Assembly: GCA_033030425.1 (NCBI GenBank)
Contig: JAUFSD010000023.1
Span: 1,264,908 to 1,328,907 of the forward strand
Length of the DNA: 64,000 bases
Direction of reading: 5' to 3'
DNA from: Verpa conica
Taxonomy: Eukaryota; Ascomycota; Pezizomycetes; Pezizales; Morchellaceae
The position numbers and the translations under genes are program-made. The notes beneath the pieces were generated by a model. It ran no database searches. It was not told where the DNA came from and saw only the letters and a program-made list of their open reading frames with translations. How positions within the stretch are numbered: position 1 is the stretch's first letter; each line of letters begins with the position of its first letter. Shown piece by piece: positions 3,953-55,889 of the stretch.

Positions 3953-6900
3953 ACTTCGCTGGTGATGATGGGAATTGAGATGTGAGGTTGTGGTGGATAC
4001 GCCATAAGGTAGGGCACAAGAATTATATACATGAAGATTACTGGCCAATAGTAATAGGTGAGAGACAGACAGTCTGATCACGTGGGATTTGCAACATTGT
4101 GTCACCCACGTGCCCGTCAATATTTTTGTGGTTGGCTAGCAAGATACGTATAACGCGAGAAAACCAACTCAAGGGAGTATCTACATAGAATGAGATATTC
4201 TTTGTTGGGTCGAGGCGTTTCCGGGCTCTGAGGCGAGTGATCAGTGTGTTCTCATATGACTAACGACATTGACCAATTGCTAGTCTAAGGACCCCTAACC
4301 CTAAACAACGAATCATTAAATCCCCCGGCTGGCTCACCTATAGGGTGTGCTTTGACTACAGTAGAGGTCAAACTTCAATTGCATCAATAGCAAGCCAACA
4401 ATACCGGCATTGATGCCCATACTCGGGTTTCGGGGCGTGAACGGCTTAATGAGCCTTGATTGAGACTCCCATTGTTTAGCCGGCAGGTATAAACCCTAGC
4501 GATGCGGAATCTGGTTGACATCTTTATCCTCGGTAGAAAACTTTATTTCGTATATTTTCAATTAGGAACTTGCTGAAGAATGTGATTGTGAGGGCGTGTA
4601 TGTGGTACTGGTTATCTGGAGTGGTATTACGGATAGCTTCTAGCTACTTCGCCTTTATGAGGTTGGACTTTTCTTGATCATGAAATCTCACTATCTTCCG
4701 AGGGACTATCAAGTTTTAGATAGGAGGCTGTCGTTATGGCTCATCTAAGAACTTTGAATTAAACCATAACGTATTGGATTCAGGGCTGAGTTTTGTCAAG
4801 TTGTAGAGGAAAAACTCACCAGAAGAGAAATGTAGTTTTGAATTTTGAAGTAGGTCCTACGGGCAATATCATCATAGATTTGGACTTGTATCCTATAAGA
4901 TCGCTAGAGGCGTGTATAGGGTAATAAGAACGATTTTTGCCTCCTGAACAAAGCGTGATTAACGCTCCCTGGGTTTTATCGTACTACTGTGTGACGAATG
5001 AATTAATTATAAGTACATGGACTACTTTGCGATTTCTAAGCTTATGGACGTACAAAGTCACAATGAGTATCGGTTCTTTCCCAGAATCACGGATAAGAGT
5101 TTGATTACATCTCAGATAACGCATCGCTTTAGTAAAAATACTATATATATGTACATGCTATAATTGTCATCACCGGGCAGAAGCTGGAAGAACATACACA
5201 AACTCTTGGAATCCGGTAAGCTCGGTCTACACGATGCTCCTGGCGAAATTACACTAGTGGCGTCATTGAACTACACATGAACTGTGTATGATTGTTTTGT
5301 CCCGCCTGTCCTGTTTTCTTTATACCATAGAACGGTAGGGGGTTTTTAGCATACTTTCAGGATTGGTTAACGGGAGCTTTGGGGGGTGGATACAAGTGAC
5401 GAAGAGAGCTACGGAGAATTTATGGTGAAATTGGGAGTGAGGGGTAAGGCATGGGGTGAATTAAGTGCAAACAGATATCTTCCGGTGCTTACGGTATTGA
5501 AAGCTGTATGAAAGCCGCCTGCCCGTAAACTTGTAAGTTGTAATATCTGCCAACGCAGTAGCGATAACAAAGCATCTTGTGTAATTGAATTTAGGATTCT
5601 AGGATAAATCGAGGGTAGCAAGATAACAGAGTTTCTTTTGCTTACTCTGGGATTACATACTCTATGTGACGGGTATGTCGGGAGCCATGAGCTTGTATAA
5701 GGAAGGACATGTAGTTCCTGGATATAGATATATTCTGTAAACGGCACCGGATCCCCTCGGGACTAAAAATAATCACTTCCAGTCCATCTTGAAGTAATTC
5801 TAGCCCAACAGCACAGACCAAAGCTAAGACTAGCACGACGTTGCGTTAAGGCTAATTCAACCCTAGCGGCCGCCCAAGACAACCCCCCCGCCAAGCCCAA
5901 CTCAGAAGGTGAGGCGTAAATAGAAATAACTAGCCCACTTTCTTTCTCAACTTTAAAGGGGGGGCTTACGGTAATATTCAACAATCCCCCCCCCTAAATT
6001 CGTGGAGTGTCATCTCGTATTCCGTAGCTCTCTATGTCGGTCCCGAGTCCGGATATGTGGTGAATATGCGATTTAGTCTGGTGCTCGGGCCAGGCCGGGT
6101 CGTTCTATCCTACGGGTCGTTCTATTTTTTTCTATTTGCTTTAACGTGGAATGGTTCGCCAATATGATGTCATCCCTGTGGTAGGGTTTGGACTCCCGCG
6201 GGAAGGGCATATTTTAGGTGCACTTCTGGGTACAGGTCACGCTGAAAGATGCTGTGCTCACATAAGCACCCTGGAACGATTCATGGAGCCTACTACAACT
6301 ATGTAGTAACCGAAGCGATAGCAAAATCTTAAACATTGATAATACTATTTATGTGATCTGTGTTTCTAAAGGGAAGATAGAACTGTTTTTAGTGGTTCCG
6401 AGTACCCGACGATACCTTCGTGTTGGAAAGTTAGATCGCTAGTTAGGCTTTGACAGACAAAGTGGTTGACTCTATCCGACATCTAGTTATCTATATTTAT
6501 TTAGGACTTTTTTTGCGGGGCATAGGGTCGTATATATCTAAATAGTGACTGTAGCGTGGGGTTGAAGCTCGTGATGGCTTCTATACTTAGACCTCCAGCT
6601 CACTATCAAAACACACCTACCAGCAGACTGACTGACCTCGCATTAAGTTCCGTAAAACGAAGATGATATCATAATACGGCTACATATATGTGTTGAGGGC
6701 CTGTTGCCAGCAAGGGTACCAGGGTATATAGACTATAGTACAATACTTTAGCTTCGATGAATACGGGGGTGCTTATCTATGGGGTTTCGATCTTTGGGTT
6801 TTTTTCCGGGCCGAGAGGGTCATAGCAGGTCACTCAGTTGCGGTGGGTCTTACGATACTGATAGGACCTTACATGTGTCCTGGGCCGAGGGAATACACAG

Positions 6901-12039: not shown

Positions 12040-13560
12040 TTATAGGTTAATTATAGTAAATGGAGCAAGAAGACCATTTGAGAAATCTAGCACATTTTTT
12101 TGACTCTCTAACAAAGCGTCGTTTTCCGTTGGTGTAAGAACCGGCATATACCCGCGGTTATCTACAGCTTTAGTATCTGCCCCAGACTCCGTGAGTAGAT
12201 CAATAAGCGCCATTCGCCATTCCGGAAAGCCACACCCATCAAACATCAGAAGAATACAGATATCCCCTGGATCTCCTAACATCCTCACGGCGAGGTGGAG
12301 TGCGGTCTCTCCTTGCTTATTTCGCGCATTGACATCCGCCCCATTCTCCAGTAATAACTTCAAAAGCCGCACATCTCCCGGCGGGTGGCTATAGAATGCC
12401 CAACTTTTACTATGGCGGTGGCATGTATTTACGCTAGAAACCAAGTGAAGCGCAGAATTGCCGTTATCGTCGAGGTGGTTGGCATCTGCGCCATTCTCCA
12501 ATAGGAACTGTGTCATTTCTAGATTTCTCGTCTCAATGACCATCTGTAACGGTGTTTGTCCATTATTGGATTGGTGGTTTATGTCCGCGCCATTGTCAAG
12601 AAGTAGTCTGCAAGTTTCCAGTCTATTCTGTATCGCAGCGATCTGAAGTGGTGTCAGACCTTCTGAGTCTGTGGCGTCTAAATCTGCGCCGTTATCGATG
12701 AGCCATTTGACAATACTGGTGGAAGCATAGGATACTGCCAAATGGATAATAGAGCAGGAAGCATCTTTGTAGTCATCCATGTATCTAAGTCTGTTTAAAG
12801 AGTGCTCTGAATCGTTGTCCATAGAGCAATATCCACTGAAGATTGACTCTTGCTCAGTCTCTAGTTTGTAATTCACATCTGCTCCAAGGGATAGGAAAAG
12901 CTGTAGCCAAATCTCGAGGCTAGCCTTAAGAAGATCGCTGTTTCTGAGCACGACGGAGAGTCCTTTATTGAGAGCCGATTTAAAGATATCTTCCCCGAAG
13001 GTCGCTTTTGTGTGAGTTAGGACGGTTTTGACCACTTCCGGTGTGCCGTGTAGGGTGGCCTCTTTAAGTATATGGATGCTGTAGCTCGATTTTGTAGATA
13101 CAGTCTCGAGCACTAATCGAAGGAGTGCGTGGCGCTTTGTCTTGATGGCATAGTATAATGGCTGAGAATATCGAAAAAGCGACTCGTGAGTATCCGGGTA
13201 TGATGATTTGTAGGTAGGTTCCGTGACGAAATTATCCCTAACGTATACATCTACTCCCTGATCCATAACCAGGTCCAGATGCTCATCTTCATCTTTGGGG
13301 ATATTCGGGTACGTCTGTACCCAGACGCCGTTTTCAATGAGGTATTTCGCGAAGGCTCGGTTACCCGTGAGGACTGCCCAGTAGAATGCTGCATTGATAT
13401 TGTAGAGCTCAGACGCAACAGTGTGGAGGAGAGGAGGAATGAGGAGGGAGAAACGTCGCGATGTAAGGATTAGGGAGTAGAGATCTGCAGCGGGGAGATA
13501 ACCGCTAAACATGAGGATCAGCTCATTGGGGATTTCGTCTATTGACTTTTGGTCAGGCAT
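12040..13560 (-). CDS. F-box/ankyrin-repeat protein 1
   Basis: Intronless, 506 residues. The N-terminus (about 7-45: IDEIPNELILMFSGYL, then LYSLILTSRRF) is an F-box of the kind that binds Skp1 in SCF ubiquitin ligases. Weak repeats follow, with canonical ankyrin repeats from about residue 260 to 475. Clear units read DSEGLTPLQIAA...LLLDNGADI, NNGQTPLQMVI...LLENGADA and KQGETALHLAV. Family knowledge suggests substrate recruitment for ubiquitination, with ankyrin repeats choosing the target; the target is unknown. The start is the Met 15 bases before the F-box Ile codon, just after AT-rich leader sequence. A shorter paralogue lies at 41358-42362. Such genes are expanded and fast-evolving in many ascomycetes. 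Confidence 0.9.
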   Translation of the reverse strand: MPDQKSIDEIPNELILMFSGYLPAADLYSLILTSRRFSLLIPPLLHTVASELYNINAAFYWAVLTGNRAFAKYLIENGVWVQTYPNIPKDEDEHLDLVMDQGVDVYVRDNFVTEPTYKSSYPDTHESLFRYSQPLYYAIKTKRHALLRLVLETVSTKSSYSIHILKEATLHGTPEVVKTVLTHTKATFGEDIFKSALNKGLSVVLRNSDLLKASLEIWLQLFLSLGADVNYKLETEQESIFSGYCSMDNDSEHSLNRLRYMDDYKDASCSIIHLAVSYASTSIVKWLIDNGADLDATDSEGLTPLQIAAIQNRLETCRLLLDNGADINHQSNNGQTPLQMVIETRNLEMTQFLLENGADANHLDDNGNSALHLVSSVNTCHRHSKSWAFYSHPPGDVRLLKLLLENGADVNARNKQGETALHLAVRMLGDPGDICILLMFDGCGFPEWRMALIDLLTESGADTKAVDNRGYMPVLTPTENDALLESQKNVLDFSNGLLAPFTIINL

Positions 13561-21144: not shown

Positions 21145-22580
21145 ATGTCTACCCATAAGGACCTACCATTATATGACCCACCATCCTATGTCCCCGCAGC
21201 ATACCTTGTCACAGGCTCACTTCTAACTGCCCCGCAGCTTGTCTCTCAATTTCAAGGCTTGTTCCCCTCTATATCTCGTACGCTTTAGCTCCATCACTAA
21301 CCTTCACCCTATAGAATTTCGTGATAACCTTAAATATGTCTCGACTGCGCCCGAACTTGTCTTTGAGCGTTTAATTGCCAATGTACGGTATAAGTTCTAG
21401 CTTAAATTCTATAGGTACTGAATGGTATAATTATGTTTAGTTGAATGAGGCATGCAAAGCTGGCCTTGATCTGGAGCGCCAGCAGTATGCTGCCGCCCTT
21501 AAGAAGCTTGAATTATCAAATGACCAACTTAAAAAGGAGATCGCGGAACTGAAAGGGGTAGCACCTAAGGATTCAGGCTCGGAGCAGGCCTTAAAAACCC
21601 TAGGTTCGTCTCCTAGCTATCGCGCCCCAGGTTTCCTAAGTCTTTTCCCGGCGCCTGGTTCCATATCGCTTTATTCATCCCCGAAGGCTTGCTCTGAACC
21701 GGAGGCATCTGACACTGCCGCTAAAGTGAAGCCCCCAAAGAACCCGGCTATCGGAAAGTTTCACACCAATGAACTGCGATCATGGAGGGAGCCGCGTGTG
21801 GAAACCTGGAAGGTAGCCTCATTTGCTACCAAATATTCTGCACCGCCAGGCCTCCCTGTAGGGCTTACGGCAATAGATATCAGTTATCATGATAACCCCC
21901 GCGTCAGTTCCTACGCAAATAATATAAAAGGAGACCGCTGTGATATCCATCTCGACACCTGGGAGACAACAACGCTGTATGGAGCTGGTTGTACATGGTT
22001 GGAAATCGAGGCTAATGATCCGGACTTTCAATTCGGAAGTTATAACATCAGCGAAGACCACCCGTGGTATCGGCCCCAGACCCTTAATTCACGAAAAATA
22101 ACTTTCCAGCATAGATTTTCTTCACCGCCGGCCGTGGTCGTCTTCTTGAGCGCGTTAGATATGAAGCGTGGGAAGCACTGGCGCTTGACATCATTCGCGA
22201 CCGATATTACCGCAACTGGATTCACTATTCATATTGACACTTGGGAAGACTCGGTGCTGTACTCTGGAGTTGCAACGTGGATTGCTTATCCAGCGGATAG
22301 AGAGGGGGTCTATAGTGGCACTTTCAGTACCAAGGATTTCCGCACGTGGCTGAATCCTCAGCTCTACAATAGTAGATATGTGAAGTTTGGCAAAGGTGTT
22401 TTTTCAGCTACACCCCGGGTTTTTTTAGCAATACGCGAGATTGATATCGACCAAGGACGTAACCTGCGGCTCAATATAAAGAGTTCTAATGTCAGCGCTG
22501 CTGGGATGACGTGGCATCTAGATGGTTGGGAGGATACAATTGTATATGGTGCAGCGGGTTCTTATATTGCTCTTAGTTGA
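21145..22580 (+). CDS. H-type lectin protein with coiled coil and three lectin domains
   Basis: Three exons (21145-21277, 21315-21382, 21441-22580) encode 446 residues. Introns are 37 and 58 bases, and their junctions were chosen because they keep frame. The N-terminus (MSTHKDLPLYDPPSYVPA) is Pro-rich and lacks a signal peptide. A coiled coil follows (about 68-105; LERQQYAAALKKLELSND, KKEIAELK), then a Ser/Pro linker. Three H-type lectin (Pfam H_lectin) units follow. Each has a W or F entry strand, PP or TP, a central L/I-x-DI/DM, then FxIHxDTWEDTxLY-like sequence and a closing W or Y strand. Visible examples are CDIHLDTWETTTLYGAG, TIHIDTWEDSVLYSG and TWHLDGWEDTIVYGAAG. H-type lectins bind GalNAc and related sugars and oligomerise. 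A cytosolic defence or recognition role is plausible. A paralogue lies at 54389-55889. Confidence 0.9.
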
Positions 22581-34830: not shown

Positions 34831-35664
34831 TTACCACGCCCCATACCCGAATACCAGAGCAGATAAGAAAGCAGCATACATCCCCCAGAAATAAGCATTA
34901 TCCCTGGTTCCATAAAGCCCAGAGGCGCCATTAATCGTACCATAAATTGTCACACCATAATAGTAGGTATCCGCAATTATCTCACAAATAACCTTCTCAC
35001 TATAACTATTGCCGGTCTCTCCACCGTTACCGTAGCTGCCTTGACCACTATTGTAGTTACTTTCGACACTATCGTAGTAATCGTAACTATCATAGTAGCT
35101 ACCATCGTAGAAGTCCTCGTTGTAGTCGCCGTAGTAGTAGTCGCTATTATCGTAATAGCCATCATAGTAGCTATCGTAGTAGTCATAGCTAATTTGATCC
35201 TGATTATAGGTATTTGTCTCGGAGAAATCAAGAAGTTCCTTAATACCGTTGGCAGCTTCAGCGACAAGCTGGGAAAGTGGATAGGTATAGTCGAGAATCT
35301 TGTTGTCTGCCTGGGCGCATGCATCCCACATGTCCTTTCTGAAGTTCCTGTCGATCCTTTGGCGGGCTGTATCGTCGCGGCGTTCTTGCAGCTTGTAGTT
35401 TCGATAACCAAAATCGTGTCTTTGACAACTCGGCAAAAAGTCGAATCCCAGGGGCTTATCATCAACCTTGGAGCACCCGTCACTCTCAAAATCAAGTGTA
35501 GAGCCTGTTTCCTCTGCCGAATCCCTCGCCGCTATAAATTCTTCTATTGAGGAGGCAAAAAGAAGGCGGTCCGTTATTGATATATCGCTTGTACTAACAT
35601 TGGCGGCGGCGGAGGTGCTAACAAAAACGACTATAGAAAAAAGGAGGATGAAGACCTTCGTCAT
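34831..35664 (-). CDS. Secreted fungal phospholipase A2 with Tyr-rich insert
   Basis: Intronless, 277 residues. Signal peptide MTKVFILLFSIVVFVSTSAA. The catalytic core of the prokaryotic/fungal-type phospholipase A2 family (Pfam Phospholip_A2_3) is visible: SDGCSKVDDKPLGFDF and SCQRHDFGYRNYK, with Cys64-Cys80 likely paired and His83-Asp84 as the catalytic pair. RNFRKDMWDAC supplies a further Cys. The family, which includes the truffle surface phospholipase TbSP1, hydrolyses phospholipids in a calcium-dependent manner outside the cell. Unusual features are a Tyr/Asp/Ser/Gly-rich tract at about 157-210 and a hydrophobic C-terminal segment of about 20 residues ending FGYGAW, which could anchor the enzyme. 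The start at 35664 is the Met of the signal peptide; the frame is open 85 codons further 5', probably untranslated. An antisense frame at 35041-35550 is a shadow of the Tyr-rich tract. Confidence 0.9.
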   Translation of the reverse strand: MTKVFILLFSIVVFVSTSAAANVSTSDISITDRLLFASSIEEFIAARDSAEETGSTLDFESDGCSKVDDKPLGFDFLPSCQRHDFGYRNYKLQERRDDTARQRIDRNFRKDMWDACAQADNKILDYTYPLSQLVAEAANGIKELLDFSETNTYNQDQISYDYYDSYYDGYYDNSDYYYGDYNEDFYDGSYYDSYDYYDSVESNYNSGQGSYGNGGETGNSYSEKVICEIIADTYYYGVTIYGTINGASGLYGTRDNAYFWGMYAAFLSALVFGYGAW

Positions 35665-36786
35665 TGCTCTCTCGGGATGATTGATTTGGAGGATCCTGTT
35701 AGGCGATCCTGGATCGAGTGGATAACGGACGGAAGGGGGGTTTTGGGCGCGACATGGAATATAAACAAACTCTAGGAAAACACGCACCTGAAGATAGCAG
35801 AGTGTGGTATTGGTGAGTTGTCTGCAGGGGGTCTTGGGTTTTATGATGTATTGGATAGGTTTTACACAAGAAGGAAGGAAAAACAGAAAGAACCGAGTAT
35901 TCTGCCCTTTCCTGCACATATCACTTTACGATCGCGCCGTGAACCTAATCTCCAATCTAAGTGGACAAGCGCTTCCCTCTCTGTCATAGCCTACCTGTAA
36001 CAAGAAGGCAGTATATACGATATAAATGTATATAGATATAGGGCTCAGCTTGATATCTGCGATTGGCTCACCCACGAAATTGCCTGATTTTCTCCCTGCG
36101 TGATTTACCGCCCTCAAGAGTTGATATAATAATTCCATTTTGGGTCTAGAATTTGTCTAACACAGGTCGTACAACACGCCCACGTGAATTTTACAGCTCT
36201 CTCAAGTGATGATAGAGCCGGGATTCAAATCTCTAGTGTAGGTTAGCGATAAATACATATCTATACACAATGCCATGGTCTTGGAAGTATAAACATTTAA
36301 TGTTAGCTATATACTTTGGTATTGGCTACTCTTGTAAAGGCTTAGCACTAAGGCTGTGGCATGGGGGGGCTGGCAGGGGTCAAGAGAGACATGCAGTTAT
36401 GCGTGCTAATGGGGGCTGAGATGTTATCTGCCCTATCAATCAAATATATCCGATCCACTGGAAATCATTGGTAGCCTTGTACACTCCAGCTTGCGTTTGG
36501 GATTGTCACGCTCTTGTCACGATCATGTCACAGAGGTATTTATGCACTACTATAGATTATTGGTTTGTATCGATTCTGCTCTGGCTCATTAAAGCTATAT
36601 AAGTTACACCTTGTTTGTATGACGACCCATAAAACTGGTAACCCCCCTTCATACCCCCTACCAGTAGTTCCTGTACCTCGAGATCTCGGTCGCTCTAAAT
36701 TGGCTTCTATGTATTAGCCAACCTTTCGGTCGAGCTCGCTCAGAAAACTAACCTCGCTTATCCAATCATTCCTGGCCAAAGAAGTA
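35665..36786. other. Intergenic region upstream of phospholipase gene
   Basis: Probable leader and promoter of the minus-strand phospholipase gene (35665 to about 36150), then AT-rich sequence. Three short GTCACG/GTCACGA/GTCACAG units occur near 36507-36533. I see no gene. Confidence 0.5.
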
Positions 36787-41357: not shown

Positions 41358-42362
41358 CTAACCCAAAAATACTATCCTTCCATTCCTCCACCGCCGGAAA
41401 GCTACCCCCCTGAAAAGTAGCCTTCTTATCTCCACGCACTGCCAGTACCCCGGCTGCGTTCTATCTATTACCGCTTTTCCACTATATCCCTTATGGGTTA
41501 CATCTGCACCCCACTCCAGTAATGTTCTAACAACAGAGTTTTTCTCTTGTCCGCTTACCGCATGGTGAAGAGCCGTGTATCCCTTGTAATCAATACTATC
41601 AACTTTTAACCCACGCCGTAACATGATTTCCACAGAACGTTCATTCCCCCAACTTGCTGCCTGGTGGAGGATTGATAGCCCTTTCGAATTCACCCAATCG
41701 ACAGACGCGCCTTGTTCAATAAGCATATCTACCACCGGTTCAGACCCCTGGATAACCGCTAAATGAAGCAATGTCTCCCCATCTATATCTTCATATGATA
41801 TATCTGCCCCCTTCTCTAGGAGGAGTCGAACAATCGCATCTGACGATGTCCTAACTGCTAGACCAAGTGGGCTGTCCGGTATCCAATCCCCTTCGACATC
41901 TGCACCGTATTCCAGCAGTAACTTCACTATATGTTCTTCTCTGTCCCTTATAGCAGCGTGTAGAGGTGAGAAACCGTCTCTATCTCCAATGTCTGCAAGT
42001 GCTCCATGGCTCAGCAATAGCTCTACAATCACGCGGTTCCCTGCATTCACTGCACGGTAGAGGGCTGTTTGACTTTTTGGGTACTCTAGGTTGGTGTAAG
42101 TATCCGGGCAATTGTCTATATAGAAGTCGATATCGACGTCTTGCTTCAGTAGGATTCGAACCAGCGACTCGTGGCCGTTCTCTGCGGCCCATTGGAGCGC
42201 GGTCATTCCATCCGCGTCTTCTAGTGCCCGCTTGTGGAGATGAGGTATTAGGGTGTAGGCTAGGTAGCTGTTGGTGAGAATTAAGGAGAATATGTCACGG
42301 ATGCTTTGGAATTCTTCGGTAATCATGCATATGAGTTCATAGGGGAGGGTGAGGAGCGACAT
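41358..42362 (-). CDS. F-box/ankyrin-repeat protein 2
   Basis: Intronless, 334 residues. The N-terminal F-box is LPYELICMITEEF then IFSLILTNSYLA. About seven consecutive ankyrin repeats fill residues 50-310. Clear ones are DGMTALQWAAENGHESLVRI, DGFSPLHAAIRDREEHIVKL, DGETLLHLAVIQGSEPVVDM and YKGYTALHHAV. The C-terminus is short and basic. As for the paralogue at 12040-13560, an SCF substrate-receptor role is inferred from the F-box. It is more canonical and compact than that paralogue. A dispersed repeat lies about 130-310 bases upstream of its start, in the likely promoter. Confidence 0.92.
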   Translation of the reverse strand: MSLLTLPYELICMITEEFQSIRDIFSLILTNSYLAYTLIPHLHKRALEDADGMTALQWAAENGHESLVRILLKQDVDIDFYIDNCPDTYTNLEYPKSQTALYRAVNAGNRVIVELLLSHGALADIGDRDGFSPLHAAIRDREEHIVKLLLEYGADVEGDWIPDSPLGLAVRTSSDAIVRLLLEKGADISYEDIDGETLLHLAVIQGSEPVVDMLIEQGASVDWVNSKGLSILHQAASWGNERSVEIMLRRGLKVDSIDYKGYTALHHAVSGQEKNSVVRTLLEWGADVTHKGYSGKAVIDRTQPGYWQCVEIRRLLFRGVAFRRWRNGRIVFLG

Positions 42363-43706: not shown

Positions 43707-45235
43707 ATGGATCCCCCTCCACTACTGTCTCTGGTCAGGCAGCCTGCCCACTTCATGACCCCCACGAGGTTACCAAATTTCCCGTCTTCAGTTGGCCGTT
43801 CCCCCTTGGTCTCCTTCTACCACCCTGGCTATTCATGCCTCACCAGGAATTGCAGCAATGACGACAGCGGTAACATCGACTCTATTAACGGCGACGAGCT
43901 TGAGGATGATGTAGCTGCTTTGATATTCAGTCTTCCAGCTGTCGATAATGGCGGTCTACACCATGGAACGGCCCTCGCTGCTTGTCGTATAATTTCCTAC
44001 AGTCGCCCCGGTTATCTCACTCGTGAGGCACCCAGTGGTGACCGGGTGTCCGAGTCTTGGGACTATGTCTTGCCTGCAGGAGTAAGGTACTATTACCATC
44101 TTGGTGCGTTCTCTATGTGCTTCTTCTCGGGACAAAAGCTTACTCCCACAAGAATCCCGTCTGCCCTTCCTTCGCAAAGTGGAAATTCGTTCGCTCCGCT
44201 ATCCCCACCGAGTGGATAAGCGCCTTCGATGTCCCCGGTGGTCAAACCGATCGTTCTGCCCTCGCAAATGAGTACCGGAGTACACACCCGCGATGTCACT
44301 TGCCGAATCACAGACTGTCGAGACGGTACCGAAAACGCCCATATTATCCCACGCAAAGAGCTTAGTTGGTTTCTGCGGAATGGCATGCGGCTCTACAACA
44401 GCAACCAAATACTTTCAAGCGATAAAATTATTGACGATGTACGCAACGGCTTTCTACTCCACCAAGATATACACAGCGCCTTTGATCACTCTGTCTTCTG
44501 TCTAACTGTCAAAGAAGGGAGGGTGGTTCCGCATTTTCTTGAAAGGAGCTATGAACAGGGTAGTTTGTACCATAATTCCGAGCTTCGCCTACCGGCTGCA
44601 GATCCATGTGTTGAGTTTATGTGGGCTCGCTTTGCATGGAGTATTATTCCACTCGCAGGTGTGTTCGCTAGTGCCCCTGGGAGGCATCTGAAGCGGTTGC
44701 CGGTACTGGTGGTTGGAAACCTCACTGCTGAAGGATCGTCTTCGGAGCGGGGATCACTTAAGCGGAGGCATCCGACCGTCGATACCCCTGTAGAAGGTGA
44801 CAATGGACGTGGCAATTCATACCATGAGAAACGAACGAGGGCTTCTGGGGTGACATCTGCCACCCTAGGAGTGAAAACCACTACAGCCTCTGCCTCATAT
44901 TCGCTATCAACACTCATCTCCACTGGCTAGCGACAGCCCTGAAAATAGCAAATCTGCACCTCTATCCCCCCAATCTAACCAAGTCTTTACTGAATTAGAG
45001 GAAGATATGAACGTTAGGAACGAGTTCTTTCCTGATATGAGTATGCCCCTTGTTCTCCCTTTCCATGTACAAATTCCACTAATCATCTTGTCTTGTAGCG
45101 GAAGAATTCGGCTACTCAAACACCTATACGTGGCAGACCGCACCGTTCTACCCCGGACAGAGACAAATGGAACGGCTCAAGAGGCGGTGGAGGGCAGAGA
45201 ATCCGCAGGTTGGATCCTTGCCGGATGAGATTTGA
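43707..45235 (+). CDS. Fungal HNH endonuclease-domain protein (HNH_2)
   Basis: The HNH_2-type domain is clear: RDVTCRITDCRDGTENAHII, then WFLRNGMRLYN, then NGFLLHQDIHSAFD, giving the His...Asn...His metal-binding set used to cut DNA. The N-terminal part (from MDPPPLLSLVRQPAHF) ends with LPAGVRYYYHL. The segment YSHKNPVCPSFAKWKF, in a second frame, is family-like. The C-terminus, in a third frame, reads EEFGYSNTYTWQTAPFYPGQ then MERLKRRW. Joining these needs introns near 44103-44137 (about 35 bases) and 44238-44280 (about 40). A third intron ends at 44886; its donor is 44790 or 44850. The last is 45040-45097. The first two are unusually short, so small frameshifts are the alternative. About 430 residues in all. 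Related proteins are abundant in fungi, with unknown targets. Confidence 0.75.
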
Positions 45236-46758: not shown

Positions 46759-49700
46759 TCAAGCCCCTGTGTGAATGAACGGTGCCCATAGAAGCGGCTT
46801 TCCTGGTTTTTTTGCTCGTAATTTCTTTACAGCCTTATGTAGCGCCATACCAACCTTCCGGTGGCCTTTGTCATTTCCCTGGTCACCAAATAATATACTG
46901 TAAAAATCACCTGCCACCTCTTTACAGGCGTCATCCTTGGATGTCCACAGAGTTGCAAGTACGTGATTAAAACCAGCAAGTTGAAACGCGCTCGCAAGAT
47001 GGATCGTTTCGTCTGACAAACCAATTCCGGAGTTGTCTGCAGTGCAGCAAGCAGAAAGATACGCCAGCTGCGCATTTTCGGTATTCGTGTCTGATATGTC
47101 TTGGACAGTGAGCCTGTCAATTGTGGGTGTAGAGTCTTTTCCGAGCAGAATCAAACTACTATTCGAAGGATTCATTTCATCTGACACCCCATGACAAGCA
47201 AAATGCATGGCATCGTATTGTCCGAACTTCTCAAGGACATCAGCGGCGCTGGGTTGGTTCAGTACTGTTGTTTGGGTCGTTCCTGTTTTGGCGATCTTAA
47301 CGATAGTTGCCACCTCTTCCTCCACCCCCGGGAGAGGCGCTTCGCCAGGTGTTGTCGGCATCGTAACTAGGAGGAGGTGGGAATTTTGTTTGCTTAGGTT
47401 TAATTTCTTTTGACGAGCATATGACAGGGCTTTGATAGTAGGGATATAGGACGAAATGACTCGGCTTATCGTATTGCGGGTTGATCCGGGAGAATGGTCG
47501 CCAGCTGCGTGAAAAGGTGCCGTACCCAACACCTCAGTACCGATCCACCAGATTTGGGTTAAGTTGTCATCATCAATTGCTCCGTTGAGTTGTAAATCCT
47601 CCAAAACTGGTTCGACTGCTACATCCCATAGCCATAGAAGGATTTTCTTCATTCTATCATTTCTCGAAGCATACGTACGCATAGGCCCCTTGACTAGTTC
47701 CTGGCTCAATTGTTCCATGTTATCCTCGGCTTCGCCGTATTTCAATTTTGGAAGTTCAAGTGATTTTATTGTGGACGTTGTGACGATTATGGCATCACTC
47801 CGGAATATTGTTGGATTGAAAACAATGATAGGGCCATGTTTGGCCATCTTCATGAGGTCCTCCGGGGCAGGTGGGAGCAGGAAATTTTTATAAGCGGGGA
47901 TCTTTCGAATATTCAACAATGTGGCTTCTATTTTCTCCATGACCTGCTTTCGTATCCTTAGGCTGGCATCTTTCCTTTTATTTTGATGCATAAGCCTCTG
48001 TTCCTTGGTGTCTTTGCCTCTGTCTCGGTTACCAGATCTATCATCGGGTTCCTTAGTCTCAATGAACGGAGAGTCGAGTTGGGTCCGGAGACGAGTAAAG
48101 GAATCAAATAACTCCGGATTTGTTGCTTTGAGTTCCGATAGTTCGCTCCTGTAATCAATAACGTAGCCAGTAATGATTCCACGACCTAATTCTAGCAATC
48201 TCAGTGCATGAGATGCGCCTCGTCCTGCAAGAAGAGCTAAGGATGCTGCCGTTGATGGTAGCCCATATAACTTCGAAAGATGATATTGCTGATCAGTACG
48301 CTCCAAGGCCCGTGGACTTACTTTTGGTAGCATTTTAACAGCCTCTTCAAGAAGTGAGCTTGACTCCTCCCAGTCCTGACGCGACACAAGACTCACAACA
48401 GCACCTTGAGCTGCAATGATACGTGTTAGGGGATCTGATGTCTGGGAGCTCCAGGCCTCCATGAAACTACGAAAAGACCTTTCAAGTTCATCTGACCCCG
48501 CGCTACCTCTTAATCTGAGAGACGCGCCCAAAATTACCAATAAATTTGCACGCCTAGGTTGATCTCCAGGGGATTTTGATAGAGCTGCTTCGGCATAGAC
48601 AATGGCTTTATCCAAATCGCTCATGTTCTTCAGCCGTTCGTATCGTCTGTAAAAAAAGAAGCTGAGGTCTGTCGAAATTGCTACCCAGTAAAGGTGGTCT
48701 TCCGGGATTGCTCTTACAGCTTCTTCTCCCCGCATAATGGCTGCATCAAGGTCACCCAATGCCCTTGATCTGACATGTTGGAGGAAAAGAGATTTGCTCA
48801 GAATAGATAACCTATTGGCAAGGTGAGGATGATCTGCCTGAGTCAATTCCAAGGCTTCTTCAGATAGCTCAATGGCCATCTTGAGGTCATCTTGAGCTCC
48901 CAACCGATAGTAGAGGGTGTTAAGGTTGCTGCTTAGGTTTGACAATCTATCTGCCAGCACAGGGTGGTCCCTTGGGGTTGCTTTCACGGCTTCTTTGGAC
49001 CGCTCAACAGCCATCTGCAGGTCGTTCAGAACCCCCAGGCGATCATATCGTGATTCAAGACGAGCGCCTAGATTGCTCAAGAAGCCTGCACGATCGGGGT
49101 GATCTTCCGGAGTTATGTCCAGAGCTGCCTGGATGTACTCAATACATTTCTCGAGGTCGTTTAAGTCACCTAGTTCTTCGTAACGGGAATTAAAGTAGTT
49201 GCTTTGATTACTCAATAGGCCTGGGAGATCGGGGTGGCCCTCCGGGGTTGCTGCTATGGCTCTTTCACCGTAGGCAATGGATGATTTGAGGTCGTCAGAA
49301 GAACCCAACCTTTCATATCGGAGGTAAAGGCGATTGCTCAGGCAGCCTAATCTACCCGGGAAAAAAGGATTACTTCCTGGGGTTGATGCCACGGTTGCTT
49401 CGGCTTGTTGAATGATTCTTTCTAAATCACTGAGGTAGCCCAGCCGATGATACCGATCCTCAATGAAGTTGCTTAAATTGACTAGCCTTTGCGTATGGTC
49501 TGGGCTGTCTCCCGGAGTTGCTGTGAGTACTGTTTCTGCTTTGCTGATTGCCATCTCTAGGTCACTCAAAGCTCCCAGCCGCTGATACCGGATTCTGAGG
49601 AGGTAGCCCATATTACTCAGATTACTTATATAGATAGGGTGATCTTTCGGGGTTTCTGTCAGTGCTACTTCGGTCTGCTCAATGGCGGTCTCAATATCAC

Positions 49701-51612
49701 CGAGGATCCCTAACCGCTCATACCTGGTAGCAAGGCTGCTGCACAGACTACCCAGCCTGGCTGCATGTTCGGGACTCTGATTTGGGGTTGCTACCACGGC
49801 TTCTTTGTTATACTCAATGGCACTTTCAAGGTCACTTAGGGTTCCAAAACGTTTAAACCGGAGTTCTAGGAGACCACCTAGGTTGGCTAACAGGTCCGCG
49901 CGCCCAGAATGGCATTGTGGTAGGGTTGTGAGGCATTCCCGAGTATGCTCAATAGCCATCTCCAGATCGTTAACAACTCCTAGCCGCTCATAACGGGCGA
50001 AAAGAAGATTTTTCAGGTTGGCTAAAGTTACTACACGGGCTGGAGCGCCTCTAGGGACTACTGCAAGGAGTACTTCCGACTGCTCAATCGCACTTTCTAG
50101 ATCACTAAGGACTCCGAACCGCTTGTACCGTAGGTAAATGAGGTGGCTTAGCCTGGCCAATGCAACTACACAATCAGGATGACCACCAGGGGTTTCTTCT
50201 ATGACTGCTTCAGTTTTCTGGATCGACATCTCCAAGTCGCTCAGATTTCCGAGCTGTTCATAGCGGTCTCTGAGGAGTTCCCCTAGCTCCTCCAACATTT
50301 CTAAATGTTTAGGATCATCTCCCTGGAGTACTCCCAGGGTTATCTCATATTTCTCAATAGCCATATTCAGGTTGCCAATAGTTCCCACCCGCTTATACCG
50401 GATATAAAGACAGTCGCTTAGGTTCTTTAATACGGTGATTTTACGGCTGGTGTCGTTTTCCGGGGTAACAGACAGGCATGCTTCTGCCATATCAACAGCC
50501 CCGTCCAAATCGCTAAGGGCTTCGAGTTTCCGGTATCGCACGTAGAGAGATGTGCTCAGGTTTCCTAGAAAAGCTGAACGCTGGTTGTGGTCAAGGTCTT
50601 CCGGGGCTGCTTTCGCGGCTGCTTTCACGGCTGCCTCGTACCATGTTATAGTTGCGTCAAGGTCGCTCGGCCTGTGCAGGTGTCGGAGTCGGGCGTAGAA
50701 GAGGCTTCCTAGGCCGTGGGTAATATTTGCACGTTGGGCGTAATTATGGTCGCCTGATGCCGCTACGGCTGCTTCACTGTGCGTAATAGCCGCTTCAAGA
50801 TCACACAAAGACCTTAGTCGCTCATATCTGGCAAGGAGATGATCGCTCAGACTTTTCAACATTTGCGCAAGATAATTGTCGCCCTCCGGTGTTAGTGCTA
50901 CTGACAACTCGGCATGCATAATGGCTTGATCGAGGCTGTGTGGGTCTCCTAAACGCTCATAGAGCCTGTAGTACCAGTTGCTGAGGCACACCGATCTATC
51001 CGCAAAATCCTCATGATCTTGTGGGGTTACTTCTAAAGCTTCCTCGAGGCGCTTGATTCCCATTTCGATGTCGTTTTTGTTTCCCAGCCGCTGGTACCTG
51101 GTGTCGTGGCGGTTGGCCAGATAACACAGAACACCCCCAAGTACTGGGTCGTCTTTTGGAGTCACTGCTACAGACGCCTCTACCGTCTCAATATCTCTGT
51201 CCAGGTCGGAAATGTTTTGTAGTTTCTTATATCGAGAGTCAAGGGAGTTACTCAGATTTCTCAATGCATAAACATGAAAGTAGTGGCCTTCTGGAGCTGC
51301 ATCTACAGCTGCTTCACTACATTTCATAGCCGCCTCAAGATCGCTCAGCGCCCCAAGACGCTCGAATCGGGCAAGGAGGCTGCTACTCAGATAAGCAAGC
51401 ATTGAAGGGTCCGGGTCGCTTTTGGGAGTTGCTGCAACGGCTGCTTCATTCCACTTCACGGCCCCTTCGAGGTCACTCAGGACCCCCGACTGCTGGTATT
51501 GGGCTAAGTAACTGCTTCCTACATCGCTCAACACAAAGGCGTAATCAGGGTTGTCTTCGGAGGTTACTGCTAGAGCCGCTATGGCCTGTTCAAGATCGCT
51601 GAGGTCTCCCAT
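46759..51612 (-). CDS. TPR-CHAT protein, caspase-like protease domain with about 23 repeats
   Basis: Single exon, 1617 residues. Residues 1 to about 1090 hold about 23 tandem TPR-like units of roughly 45-54 residues. Each is marked by a start such as LSDLEMAIEHTRE, a middle such as DHPDRAGFLSNLGARL and an end such as RYDRLGV. A linker includes a basic, charged segment near 1200. The C-terminal CHAT domain (about 1290-1617; Pfam CHAT, caspase/separase clan) shows AMHFACHG with catalytic His1474 and YLSACCTA with Cys1522, then LASAFQLAGFNHVLATLW and a terminal WAPFIHTG. CHAT proteins are proteases whose repeats usually sense a trigger. The start is the first ATG, but the frame is open 13 codons further to a TAA and keeps TPR register, so an upstream exon is possible. 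The gene is head to head with 52796-53602, a layout reminiscent of fungal protease/gasdermin cell-death pairs. Confidence 0.93.
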   Translation of the reverse strand: MGDLSDLEQAIAALAVTSEDNPDYAFVLSDVGSSYLAQYQQSGVLSDLEGAVKWNEAAVAATPKSDPDPSMLAYLSSSLLARFERLGALSDLEAAMKCSEAAVDAAPEGHYFHVYALRNLSNSLDSRYKKLQNISDLDRDIETVEASVAVTPKDDPVLGGVLCYLANRHDTRYQRLGNKNDIEMGIKRLEEALEVTPQDHEDFADRSVCLSNWYYRLYERLGDPHSLDQAIMHAELSVALTPEGDNYLAQMLKSLSDHLLARYERLRSLCDLEAAITHSEAAVAASGDHNYAQRANITHGLGSLFYARLRHLHRPSDLDATITWYEAAVKAAAKAAPEDLDHNQRSAFLGNLSTSLYVRYRKLEALSDLDGAVDMAEACLSVTPENDTSRKITVLKNLSDCLYIRYKRVGTIGNLNMAIEKYEITLGVLQGDDPKHLEMLEELGELLRDRYEQLGNLSDLEMSIQKTEAVIEETPGGHPDCVVALARLSHLIYLRYKRFGVLSDLESAIEQSEVLLAVVPRGAPARVVTLANLKNLLFARYERLGVVNDLEMAIEHTRECLTTLPQCHSGRADLLANLGGLLELRFKRFGTLSDLESAIEYNKEAVVATPNQSPEHAARLGSLCSSLATRYERLGILGDIETAIEQTEVALTETPKDHPIYISNLSNMGYLLRIRYQRLGALSDLEMAISKAETVLTATPGDSPDHTQRLVNLSNFIEDRYHRLGYLSDLERIIQQAEATVASTPGSNPFFPGRLGCLSNRLYLRYERLGSSDDLKSSIAYGERAIAATPEGHPDLPGLLSNQSNYFNSRYEELGDLNDLEKCIEYIQAALDITPEDHPDRAGFLSNLGARLESRYDRLGVLNDLQMAVERSKEAVKATPRDHPVLADRLSNLSSNLNTLYYRLGAQDDLKMAIELSEEALELTQADHPHLANRLSILSKSLFLQHVRSRALGDLDAAIMRGEEAVRAIPEDHLYWVAISTDLSFFFYRRYERLKNMSDLDKAIVYAEAALSKSPGDQPRRANLLVILGASLRLRGSAGSDELERSFRSFMEAWSSQTSDPLTRIIAAQGAVVSLVSRQDWEESSSLLEEAVKMLPKVSPRALERTDQQYHLSKLYGLPSTAASLALLAGRGASHALRLLELGRGIITGYVIDYRSELSELKATNPELFDSFTRLRTQLDSPFIETKEPDDRSGNRDRGKDTKEQRLMHQNKRKDASLRIRKQVMEKIEATLLNIRKIPAYKNFLLPPAPEDLMKMAKHGPIIVFNPTIFRSDAIIVTTSTIKSLELPKLKYGEAEDNMEQLSQELVKGPMRTYASRNDRMKKILLWLWDVAVEPVLEDLQLNGAIDDDNLTQIWWIGTEVLGTAPFHAAGDHSPGSTRNTISRVISSYIPTIKALSYARQKKLNLSKQNSHLLLVTMPTTPGEAPLPGVEEEVATIVKIAKTGTTQTTVLNQPSAADVLEKFGQYDAMHFACHGVSDEMNPSNSSLILLGKDSTPTIDRLTVQDISDTNTENAQLAYLSACCTADNSGIGLSDETIHLASAFQLAGFNHVLATLWTSKDDACKEVAGDFYSILFGDQGNDKGHRKVGMALHKAVKKLRAKKPGKPLLWAPFIHTGA

Positions 51613-52795
51613 CTTTCTAAGCTTTTTGTAAAATCGTTCGGGGGGTGTTGCTTAGAGGAGCTTTATGCCTCAAGAGGAATTACGCGGTTCTCACCTTTAT
51701 ATGGGAATCCTCAGGTGTCGCCTTTGTGGCACAGAACTCTTGCTAAAAGAGGTCTGTCTGCTCAGATTGCTATAAGCGAAGGATCTCAAGACAAGGCGAG
51801 CGCTTATTTGCATTAGCGCTCATCCGGTATCAAGACAAGCACTTTATGCATAATTTTGGTTAATGACTAACAATACCCCAAATGCTTTGTTTGCGAGTAG
51901 ATTGGGAACTGGAAAAGGCATCTAGATTTCAAGTTGCAACATGTCTCCAGGTGCTTTGTGTCACACAATAGTAGGTGTAGAGCCCTTACAAAGGACTAGA
52001 GTGTTCATAGAGGCTGTGATCTCGAGCTCATTACATAGTGTAGGAGCAGGGTCCTAAATGGTGGGCTGTCACACAAGGAGATCTCCTGAGCGAGGGTGGC
52101 TTAGCGTGGGGTCCCCCTTGACCTGTTCCTGCTGGTGTAGAGAGTAGATCGGTTGATTGATTAGTGTGGCGAATCGAGAAAACATTTCAACATATACAGT
52201 CGCACCTCGCTATACCAGGTGGTAAATTTTACGGGACAGCAAATAATCTCTAGGCTGGGAGTGCTAATAGGTAAGTGGGGTTAGGGTTCTGACAGTCAAG
52301 TCACCAAACTGGTACGAGCAGGGCCCCCCAATAGGTGCTAGTAAGGACAGCCAAGCTGAAGTTGTCCGTGACAAAATGTTGTTTATATGGGTACAGGGGT
52401 CTGGGGGTTCAAATTCCCATATGGTAAGGGACAATCGAAAATCAGGAATAACAAACTAATTTTGGGAAATGAAGTAGCAGCCAGATTCGTCCGGGATCGT
52501 ATAGCAAGGTGCAACTATAGAGTATGTACCTAGATCTCCCTGGTGAATATGTACTCTCAACCTACCTGGTGACTCAATAGCTGAGAGGTCGTGCGGGGAA
52601 AAGAACCGTACAACATACTAAAAATGTCAGCACCCACACAGGTACTCTAGGCAACATGCAGAAGGCAACGCAGGTTTCGGTCTCAGCTATTTTGACGACG
52701 ACGTTAATTTTAACGGACCTTCCCCCGACACCAACACTGGTATAACTAACGGATGAACCCCAACCTACTAAAAAACAATTTCTCCCCAGCACATA
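51613..52795. promoter_or_regulatory. Divergent promoter of TPR-CHAT gene and its partner
   Basis: 1.18 kb between two gene starts facing apart, so both promoters must lie here. A TA-flanked pogo-like MITE occupies 52197-52517. I could not recognise specific transcription-factor sites. The extension of TPR-like codons past 51612 suggests that part of the region near 51613-51800 may be a 5' exon or leader. Confidence 0.55.
52197..52517. mobile_element. Pogo/Fot1-like MITE in the divergent promoter
   Basis: 321 bp. The left end is CAGTCGCACCTCGCTATAC. The reversed right end is TAGTTGCACCTTGCTATAC, differing only by C-to-T changes. TA flanks at 52195-52196 and 52518-52519. No coding capacity. 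The transition bias in the right arm looks RIP-like. Confidence 0.75.
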
Positions 52796-53602
52796 ATGCC
52801 ATCCACAAACGTTTTCCAGACCAGTCTTTTACCCTTAGATGCTGTTCAGCTCGGGCGCTTGGTCCAAAACACCACGTCTCCCCAGCAGGATTTCCTCGAT
52901 CCCCCCGCTGACGAACCACCTGAAGTCATTGTCAACTCCCAGAAGAATTTCGAAGAGATACGAACCTCGGTCAAAGCTTTCAAGGTTCGGGCCCGCCTAA
53001 CCCAACTCCTTTCAGCCTCCTACGACAAGAAGCACTCTAAAAATATCGACTTGTCCGCTACAAGCGCCTCCACCTACCTGCTCTGTAATTCAAAAGCTTG
53101 GTTCACAAAAGCGTGCGGAACACCTGAAATACGTGAATGGTTAGAAGAAGCCATCGAGGACGGAAATAACGTTTATTTGGTTGTAGGGTACCATACCCTT
53201 GTAGATGCACGCTTTACAGCAGGTGCAAACTCTTCAAGGACAGATAGTGGAGGAATCACCGCACCGATCGGTGCTAGTGGAATACCATCTGTCGCGGGAA
53301 TGGATTTGAGCATTGGAGTTGATAGCTCAAAGAAATTCAGCCATGGGTTTAAGCGGACTTTTCATGCGCCCGGAGAGCAGATATATGCCGTCCAGTACCG
53401 TAAAATCTTATTCAAGTGGTATTCTAGCCGGAAGTTTGAGCACGGATTTCTTGAGCAGGATAATCGGTGGAAGGTCTATGGAGGAAGAGGGGAAGAGGAC
53501 AACGTTGAAGTGATCGAGGCAGAACTTTCAGATGAAGTTGAGCTTGAAGAATCTAACGAGACGTATACCAGCGAGGATGGTACGGCTGAATTTATTCTTT
53601 AG
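52796..53602 (+). CDS. Protein divergent from TPR-CHAT, possible gasdermin-like partner
   Basis: Intronless, 268 residues, no signal peptide. Sequence blocks: an N-terminal FQTSLLPLDAVQLGRLVQNT with a short QQDFLDPP motif. Next is a basic KVRARLTQLLSASYDKKHSK segment, then TYLLCNSKAWFTKACGTPE with WLEEAIED. A likely beta-strand part reads NNVYLVVGYHTLVDARF, followed by Ser/Gly-rich GASGIPSVAGMDLSIGV. Then come GEQIYAVQYRKILFKWYSSR and FLEQDNRWKVY. A strongly acidic tail of about 38 residues (228-268) closes it. The central LVVGYHT...VQYRKIxFKW pattern recurs in an uncharacterised ascomycete family I recognise. Its size, probable beta-rich body, short tail and divergent pairing with a CHAT protease fit fungal gasdermin-like proteins, which are cut to release a short C-terminal inhibitor. 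This is inference only; other immune-type roles remain possible. Confidence 0.8.
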   Translation: MPSTNVFQTSLLPLDAVQLGRLVQNTTSPQQDFLDPPADEPPEVIVNSQKNFEEIRTSVKAFKVRARLTQLLSASYDKKHSKNIDLSATSASTYLLCNSKAWFTKACGTPEIREWLEEAIEDGNNVYLVVGYHTLVDARFTAGANSSRTDSGGITAPIGASGIPSVAGMDLSIGVDSSKKFSHGFKRTFHAPGEQIYAVQYRKILFKWYSSRKFEHGFLEQDNRWKVYGGRGEEDNVEVIEAELSDEVELEESNETYTSEDGTAEFIL

Positions 53603-54388: not shown

Positions 54389-55889
54389 TTAGGTAAGAGC
54401 AATATACGATCCACCAGCCGAGTACAAGGTTGTGTCCTTCCATGTATTCAACTGCCAAGTCATCCCCGCGGCCGAGGGCCCAGTACCGGTCACCTCAACC
54501 CTCAAGCCTTTTTTATATGATATATCAAACGAATTAATCCCTAGCAAAATACGTGGTGTGGTCTTAAACATATCCTTCGGGAACTTCGTCGGCCCCGATG
54601 TTTTCGGCTGTGGATTGGTATCCGGGCGCACATCCAGCGTACTAAAACTGCCAGTGCAAACATCCTTTTTACTCGCTGGATAAGAAATCCAGCTCGCTGC
54701 TGCTGAGAATAGTTGCGTATCACCCCATGTGTCGATATGGATTGTGAATCCAGTCGCGGTAATATCCGAAGCATATGCTTTGACGCGCCAGTTCTTCTGA
54801 GGGTTCATGTCGAATGCTGTTAACCACACCATAATCTGAGGAGGCTCGGCGTAAGGTCGTGCGAAAGAGACCTGGCGGTTGTAGGCCATCTCTGACGTAT
54901 GCCATGGGTGGTCTTCAAGAGTGTTAAATCTCCCGGATTGAAAATCTTGGTGGTCTGGCTCGATTTCGAGCCAGATGCAACCACCAGCATTAATCTTTGT
55001 AGTGGAGTCACCGTCGATATTGATATCAAACCCGTTGTTTGTCAGGTTGCTTGTGAAGCAGGAGGCGCGTATGCTGGTGCCATTGGGAATGTCTATTGAG
55101 TATAGTCCAGTAGCAATACTCGGTGGTGCCGGGTAGGCCTTGGCGAAAGAGACTTGCTTGGATGTTTTCTCGACTGGGATAGTGTCAGGGCGTACACCTT
55201 TGGTGTTGAAGCTATTGATAAGAGGATTCTTTGTAGATCTAGGATTGGAGGAACCCCCTATTGTGAGAATTAGTATTGTATTGATAGCGCGGGGAGGGGG
55301 TCCTACGTTTGTTTTGAAGGGCTTGGGCTAGTTCATCGTTTGCCTCTTTTGCGCGCAATAGTTCCTTCTCTGTATCCGATAGCTGCTTTTTCGTATCTGA
55401 CAGGTCTCGGGTTATCGCAAGCATCCCATTCTTTGCCTCTGAGAGATCCTTGCGTGCCTCTAATAGGCCCTTCTTCACTTGCACGGTCTCTTTCTTCAGG
55501 AGATTGTTCGATGATAGCAGGGATGCGTTTTCGCTCTGTAGTTTGTTTAACAACGAGGTAGAGGGTACCTTTACGCCGTTGGTCGGTAACTTTGCCGCAG
55601 TAGAGGGTAACTTCACACCAGTAGACGGTAACTTTACGCCGGTAGAGGGTATTTTCACACCGGTAGAGGGTATCTTTCCACCAGTGGACGGTGTCACCCT
55701 GTCAATGGAGAGATCCGCCAAGGGCAATAGGTCTCCGGTAAGTCTAGGGATAAGTCGGCCTGGGCCTGTAAGAGGTCGTAAGAGGTCAGTAGACGTGAGT
55801 GACTGAGCCACAGGTGACCCAGTAAGTAAGCCTGTGATTCTTTCAAGGCTTCTAACTGCTGACTCAAGTTCATCCCTATGGCCGTACAT
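54389..55889 (-). CDS. H-type lectin protein 2 with heptapeptide repeat and long coiled coil
   Basis: Two exons (55889-55307, 55257-54389) joined by a 49-base intron give 483 residues. The first begins MYGHRDELESAVRSLERI and is followed by a Pro-rich part with about six K(I/L)PSTGV heptapeptides. A coiled coil of about 80 residues (LQSENASLLSSNNLLKKE through LLRAKEANDELAQAL) follows. Three H-type lectin units occupy the second exon. Visible signatures are GFDINIDGDSTTKINAGG (Trp absent), GFTIHIDTWGDTQLFSA and GMTWQLNTWKDTTLYSAG, each with a PP/TP entry and closing strand. The lectin part closely resembles that of 21145-22580 while the N-termini share only the coiled-coil plan. No signal peptide, so it is likely intracellular. 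The splice is well supported: it recovers the first lectin domain in frame with a TACTAAT branch-like site. Confidence 0.9.
55559..55697 (-). repeat. 21-bp coding minisatellite in lectin 2
   Basis: About six units of 21 bp encode K(I/L/V)PSTGV-type heptapeptides (one AAKLPTNG variant). The units have few substitutions, so they look recent or homogenised. They separate the N-terminal head from the coiled coil. Confidence 0.85.

Follow-up and report, generated by a model that had tools for sequence, protein, structure and literature searches.

A predicted gasdermin and a TPR-CHAT protease encoded head-to-head in Verpa conica form a probable regulated-cell-death module

Why do a giant repeat-bearing protease and a small protein of unassigned family lie back to back near the end of a Verpa conica contig? 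The window, the terminal 64 kb (64,000 nucleotides) of contig C23 (JAUFSD010000023.1) in a genome of 45.8 Mb in 25 contigs, carries a gene for a 1617-residue TPR-CHAT protein and, divergent from it, a gene for a 268-residue protein (Table 1). A first-pass annotation had proposed a candidate gasdermin/CHAT cell-death pair, a proposal that the predicted RCD-1-like fold of the smaller protein and the conserved linkage of the two families support. We conclude that the locus is most likely a two-gene regulated-cell-death module, comprising a fungal gasdermin and a dedicated TPR-CHAT sensor-protease that would cut it. The earlier reading described the sequence correctly, and its interpretation is very probably correct too.

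Table 1. Positions of the two genes, their parts and related paralogs (window coordinates, or coordinates within the named locus)
Feature	Position	Strand	Basis and proposed role
TPR-CHAT gene	46759-51612	minus	single unbroken open reading frame (ORF) of 1617 aa; proposed sensor-protease that activates the gasdermin
CHAT caspase-like protease domain, aa 1324-1616	46765-47643	minus	PF12770, E 6.7e-40
His1474 codon (HFACHG), proposed catalytic	47191-47193	minus	His in 17/17 aligned rows
Cys1522 codon (LSAC), proposed catalytic	47047-47049	minus	Cys in 17/17 aligned rows
23 full TPR-like units, ~45 aa each, aa 6-1035	48508-51597	minus	iterated hidden Markov model (HMM); proposed sensor array
Shared upstream region of the divergent genes	51613-52795		1183 bp
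Gasdermin-fold gene	52796-53602	plus	single unbroken ORF of 268 aa; executioner, proposed to form pores
Two long predicted strands, aa 126-143 and 186-210, around a low-confidence loop	53171-53425	plus	AlphaFold model
Short acidic C-terminal tail, aa 226-268	53471-53599	plus	15 D/E vs 2 K/R; proposed inhibitory segment and cleavage region
Anchor-like gasdermin paralogs	L010:1142-2158, L014:1157-2176, L017:7609-8775, L020:4515-5675; weaker, L013:919-1848		segment after acidic linker
Gasdermin-TPR fusion paralog	L016:6527-8224		one ORF; PF13374, PF13424; no CHAT gene in the stretch examined

Both ORFs are intact and divergent, as first annotated, with in-frame stops upstream of their start codons. 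The larger gene is identified by its ORF, by matches to PF12770 and to TPR families, and by paralogs that are intact within the same genome. The CHAT domain was recovered together with His1474 and Cys1522, both where the annotation had placed them, which we take to be the catalytic residues. An HMM iterated on the protein resolved 23 full TPR-like units and a weak 24th at residues 1088–1106, in keeping with an earlier estimate of about 23, and the underlying DNA repeats have the same spacing, 135 bases; a linker lies between the array and the C-terminal CHAT domain. The array had also been called extreme. It is long, but the 15 CHAT proteins counted in the genome, the window's included, span 10–24 units, and a new variant with an extreme repeat array is not supported. 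Identity between the window protein and L025, its nearest paralog in the genome, falls from 70% in the CHAT domain to 49% in the linker and 41% in the TPR region. Judged from this comparison, the array is the fastest-evolving part of the protein, which would fit a role in recognition. The L025 CHAT gene itself (L025:1533-5318) has no gasdermin gene in the stretch examined. A PDB sequence search with the TPR-CHAT protein at E 0.001 returned no match. The model of Csx29, the TPR-CHAT protease of Craspase, matched residues 1353–1569 (E 1.1e-9) with 37.7 bits, short of the NCBIfam cut-off of 300, and the genome here, unlike that comparison, is eukaryotic.

The 268-residue protein is identified by its AlphaFold model and by the 48 homologs found in a sequence search. 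The first annotation had called for a comparison with gasdermins, and the fold predicted by AlphaFold is a gasdermin's and not, as would have told against the annotation, an unrelated one: RCD-1-1 and RCD-1-2 of Neurospora crassa (PDB 8jyx, 8jyy, 8jyz) are nearest to both models, the best 23 rows of each VIA structure listing are gasdermins, and RCD-1 exceeds the best non-gasdermin by 4.0 and 5.5 Z units for the two models, with 11–16% identity over aligned residues. Given the gasdermin fold, the two long predicted strands may be a membrane-inserting hairpin. The acidic tail described earlier was borne out, residues 232–257 holding 12 D/E and no K/R. Named relatives are proteins from Morchella, Maublancomyces, Tuber, Choiromyces, Wilcoxina, Trichoderma and Aspergillus. 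We aligned the family in three sets: A1, the window protein with 45 of the 48 homologs (three fragments dropped); A2, 30 of the 48 with 12 of 13 members from the same genome (L016 dropped); and A3, the window protein with 41 of 60 homologs, without fragments, sequences that carry long insertions or tails, and a handful of further rows. The segment past Trp225 is net negative in all 46 rows of A1.

The two families are linked across the genome. Sixteen places match the 268-residue protein, 13 as intact ORFs and three as decayed or partial copies, and 22 places match CHAT, 17 of them above 100 bits; the five weak ones, two of which are pieces of one decayed gene, were excluded from the 17. An intact TPR-CHAT gene adjoins 10 of the 13 intact gasdermins, one in tandem and nine head-to-head at distances of 1071–2674 bp. 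Published fungal gasdermin/protease clusters (fGSDM/Q2-L) have the two genes within 10 kb and an S8 or CHAT protease that often bears TPR, ANK or WD repeats; in the window the distance is 1183 bp, and the protease has a CHAT domain with 23 TPR units. Ten of the 17 strong CHAT places adjoin a gasdermin, an eleventh (L024) is in tandem with a CHAT gene that is itself paired, and six are unpaired in the stretch examined. Linkage of the two families, the absence of which would have told against the first-pass annotation, is conserved in this genome. Among the decayed or partial copies (L021, L022, L023), L022 adjoins a decayed CHAT gene, and such copies are consistent with birth-and-death turnover. 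A short TPR-like ORF (122 aa, E 1.4e-7) adjoining the gasdermin L015 may be a relic.

Paired genes have also diverged in parallel. Across the ten pairs, gasdermin and CHAT-domain distances correlate with r 0.63 (equalled in 0 of 20,000 permutations), with r 0.64 when the outlier L011 is left out (0 of 20,000) and with r 0.65 in the seven pairs that remain without L011, the window pair and L009 (42 of 20,000). The 250 residues preceding the CHAT domain gave, in the same three sets, r 0.62, 0.52 and 0.38, with 1, 25 and 800 of 20,000 permutations. Nearest neighbours agree for seven of the ten pairs; the window's own pair is among those that disagree. Beyond this genome, we compared the sizes of the contigs from which 60 gasdermins and the best 120 of 2375 CHAT matches derive and found five exact matches (4638, 13308, 15671, 18676 and 24096 bases); 5000 jittered sets averaged 0.14 such matches and never had more than 3. 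Equal sizes suggest, though they do not establish, that a gasdermin and a CHAT protein are encoded on the same contig in other genomes as well.

This arrangement has published counterparts. According to reviews, ~80% or more of the gasdermin genes of fungi lie in clusters with a protease gene, the partner proteases being S8 in 60–63% and CHAT in 17–19% of cases, and in Podospora a gasdermin is activated by a TPR-bearing CHAT protease (PMC12881547, PMC10989679, PMC10197012); bacterial gasdermins are likewise described as clustering with proteases (PMC12881547). As in the fGSDM/Q2-L clusters of Clave et al. 2022, as those reviews describe them, a gasdermin-fold gene here stands beside a gene for a TPR-bearing CHAT protease, and a short C-terminal region replaces the large inhibitory domain of animal gasdermins. 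Unlike in the fungal survey, with its S8 majority, all ten intact pairs use CHAT. None of the 15 S8 places in the genome lies within 80 kb of a member of the 268-residue family, and a subtilisin partner for the CHAT-less gasdermins was rejected on that ground. A CHAT-domain protein of 1,327 residues also occurs at hetB of Aspergillus fumigatus, where it is involved in heterokaryon incompatibility; in contrast to the window pair, the other hetB idiomorph is reported to encode 149 residues with no recognised domain, and a gasdermin is suggested there but not shown (PMC11138114).

In view of the published clusters with CHAT activators, and of hetB, a tail-cutting sensor-protease is the best reading of the pair. 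The gasdermin would be held inactive as long as its short acidic tail is in place. Recognition of a non-self or stress signal by the TPR array would render the CHAT cysteine protease active, which would then cut the gasdermin in or near the tail, and the freed gasdermin domain would form membrane pores and bring about the death of the cell compartment, presumably in allorecognition or defence. What the sensors of fungal gasdermin systems detect is described as an open question (PMC12881547).

Several observations weigh against this reading. The gasdermin N-domain fold is predicted at moderate model confidence, with mean predicted local distance difference test scores (pLDDT) of 61.7 and 70.3 for two models built on overlapping alignments; TM-scores reach at most 0.51 among the matches listed, and the best Foldseek E of the second model is 3.4e-3. 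With two HMMER profiles of the 268-residue family, none of the PDB gasdermins was matched even at E as high as 10, a search of the genome with PF04598 gave no match, and Pfam scans of the 268-residue protein and of the 46 A1 rows found no gasdermin model. NCBIfam and PADLOC scans of the protein were likewise without a match, and no name reads gasdermin among the homologs listed. By sequence the family appears isolated when judged against Pfam and PDB profiles, though it may still fall among the ~1900 published fungal gasdermins. L015, L016 and L020, three of the 13 intact gasdermins, lack a neighbouring CHAT gene in the stretch examined, and six CHAT genes (L025, L026, L027, L028, L031 and L032, with L026 a distant relative) have no gasdermin there; the family HMM found no hidden gasdermin beside these unpaired CHAT genes, in stretches reaching ~3–4 kb upstream.

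A further point is that RCD-1, the nearest structure, is described as activated by co-expression of alleles and without cleavage (PMC12881547, PMC11760362). The partner could accordingly be a gasdermin that works as RCD-1 does, activated by a different allele or paralog, with the TPR-CHAT protein restraining or modulating it and cutting nothing. The short tail past the gasdermin fold and the many paralogs in a single genome would agree with this. We nonetheless consider it unlikely: the CHAT His and Cys are kept across the aligned family, the gasdermin co-diverges with the protease and the acidic tail is conserved, all of which fit cleavage better. RCD-1-1 and RCD-1-2 are similar in length to the window protein (257 and 244 against 268 residues). 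In the window a protease gene is adjacent, and the HMMER profiles used here showed no link between the 268-residue family and RCD-1.

The genes might instead be neighbours because families near chromosome ends co-duplicate, with no functional dependence between them. CHAT genes are indeed enriched within 100 kb of contig ends (11 of 17, P 1.7e-7), and gasdermins are so to a lesser degree (5 of 13, P 0.0093). Under uniform placement, at least 10 of 13 would be paired by chance with P 1.4e-19, a null that is too easy since the CHAT genes cluster near contig ends; if all these genes were restricted to the outermost 100 kb on either side of every contig, our own arithmetic would still put the chance at ~6e-10. 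Nor are the ten pairs independent events, as pairs may duplicate as units, and duplication of whole pairs would also yield parallel divergence. Against mere co-duplication, the pairs lie 1.1–2.7 kb apart, mostly head-to-head, at terminal and internal sites, pairing persists down to ~32% gasdermin identity, and published gasdermin/protease clusters show functional activation (PMC12881547). On balance we regard co-duplication as quite improbable. That the partner is another β pore-former (CDC, CDC-like or MACPF) seems very unlikely, given the ranking of gasdermins in the structure listings, the margin of RCD-1 there, and a size and single-domain build that fit a gasdermin.

The C-terminal ends of the paralogs bear on how a cleavable gasdermin might be kept. 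The 13 gasdermins of this genome share an acid-rich stretch followed by differing extensions; the window protein has no extension, and a membrane anchor on it was rejected, its maximum 19-residue hydropathy past residue 225 being −0.51. A hydrophobic stretch above threshold lies in or near the C-terminal end of five of the 13 (L010, L013, L014, L017 and L020), weakest in L013 and followed by 38 residues in L017, and shuffled tails equalled the observed hydropathy in 0–23 of 2000 cases for these five. Among the homologs of at least 250 residues (n=57), P0040 and P0169 pass the hydropathy threshold and P0171 falls just below it. A well-supported branch sets 17 of the 70 rows apart, and all of these sequences fall among the 17. 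Within that group the label is not a single clade: six labelled rows, with L013 unlabelled, require three changes, a number that 26 of 500 shuffles also reach. A literature search for membrane-anchored gasdermins found nothing relevant. Beside the L016 fusion there seems to be another from outside this genome, the 532-residue homolog P0177, whose repeats on our reading resemble those of the TPR-CHAT proteins.

Other genes of the window include two for H-type lectin proteins (PF09458), at 54389–54889 (minus), ~800 bp past the gasdermin gene, and at 21441–22580 (plus). A phospholipase A2 of the family that Pfam calls "prokaryotic" (PF09056, E 4.8e-33) is encoded at 34831–35919 (minus), an ORF resembling HNH_2 endonucleases (PF13391, E 6.8e-12) at 44229–44930 (plus), and ankyrin-repeat proteins at 12040–13560 (minus), with a weak F-box, and at 41358–42362 (minus). 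At 4293 there is a short interstitial run of CCCTAA, two or more units long. No telomere repeats were found at the window's end, so that equating contig ends with chromosome ends is an assumption. Literature searches on gasdermin and Morchella found nothing relevant, and those on fungal gasdermin and subtelomeres found gasdermin only in reference lists.

The window pair very probably belongs to the published kind of fungal gasdermin/protease cluster. Its setting is unusual in the all-CHAT expansion, the sequence-isolated gasdermin family and the candidate membrane-anchored paralogs. Tentatively, and as a possibility that we rate below even, this lineage, for which the sequence searches made here showed no tie to RCD-1 or to the gasdermins of animals, may have expanded into a matched gasdermin/TPR-CHAT arsenal near contig ends, some of whose paralogs, though not the window protein, would be stored pre-anchored and released by CHAT. 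If so, cleavage ahead of a C-terminal anchor that follows an acidic linker would free a pre-anchored gasdermin, a storage mode that the literature searches did not find described. With this locus comes a gasdermin family that went unrecognised here by sequence profiles from Pfam and PDB, and the about ten natural sensor/executioner pairs in this one genome offer a panel for protease-gasdermin specificity and for the signals that the sensors recognise.
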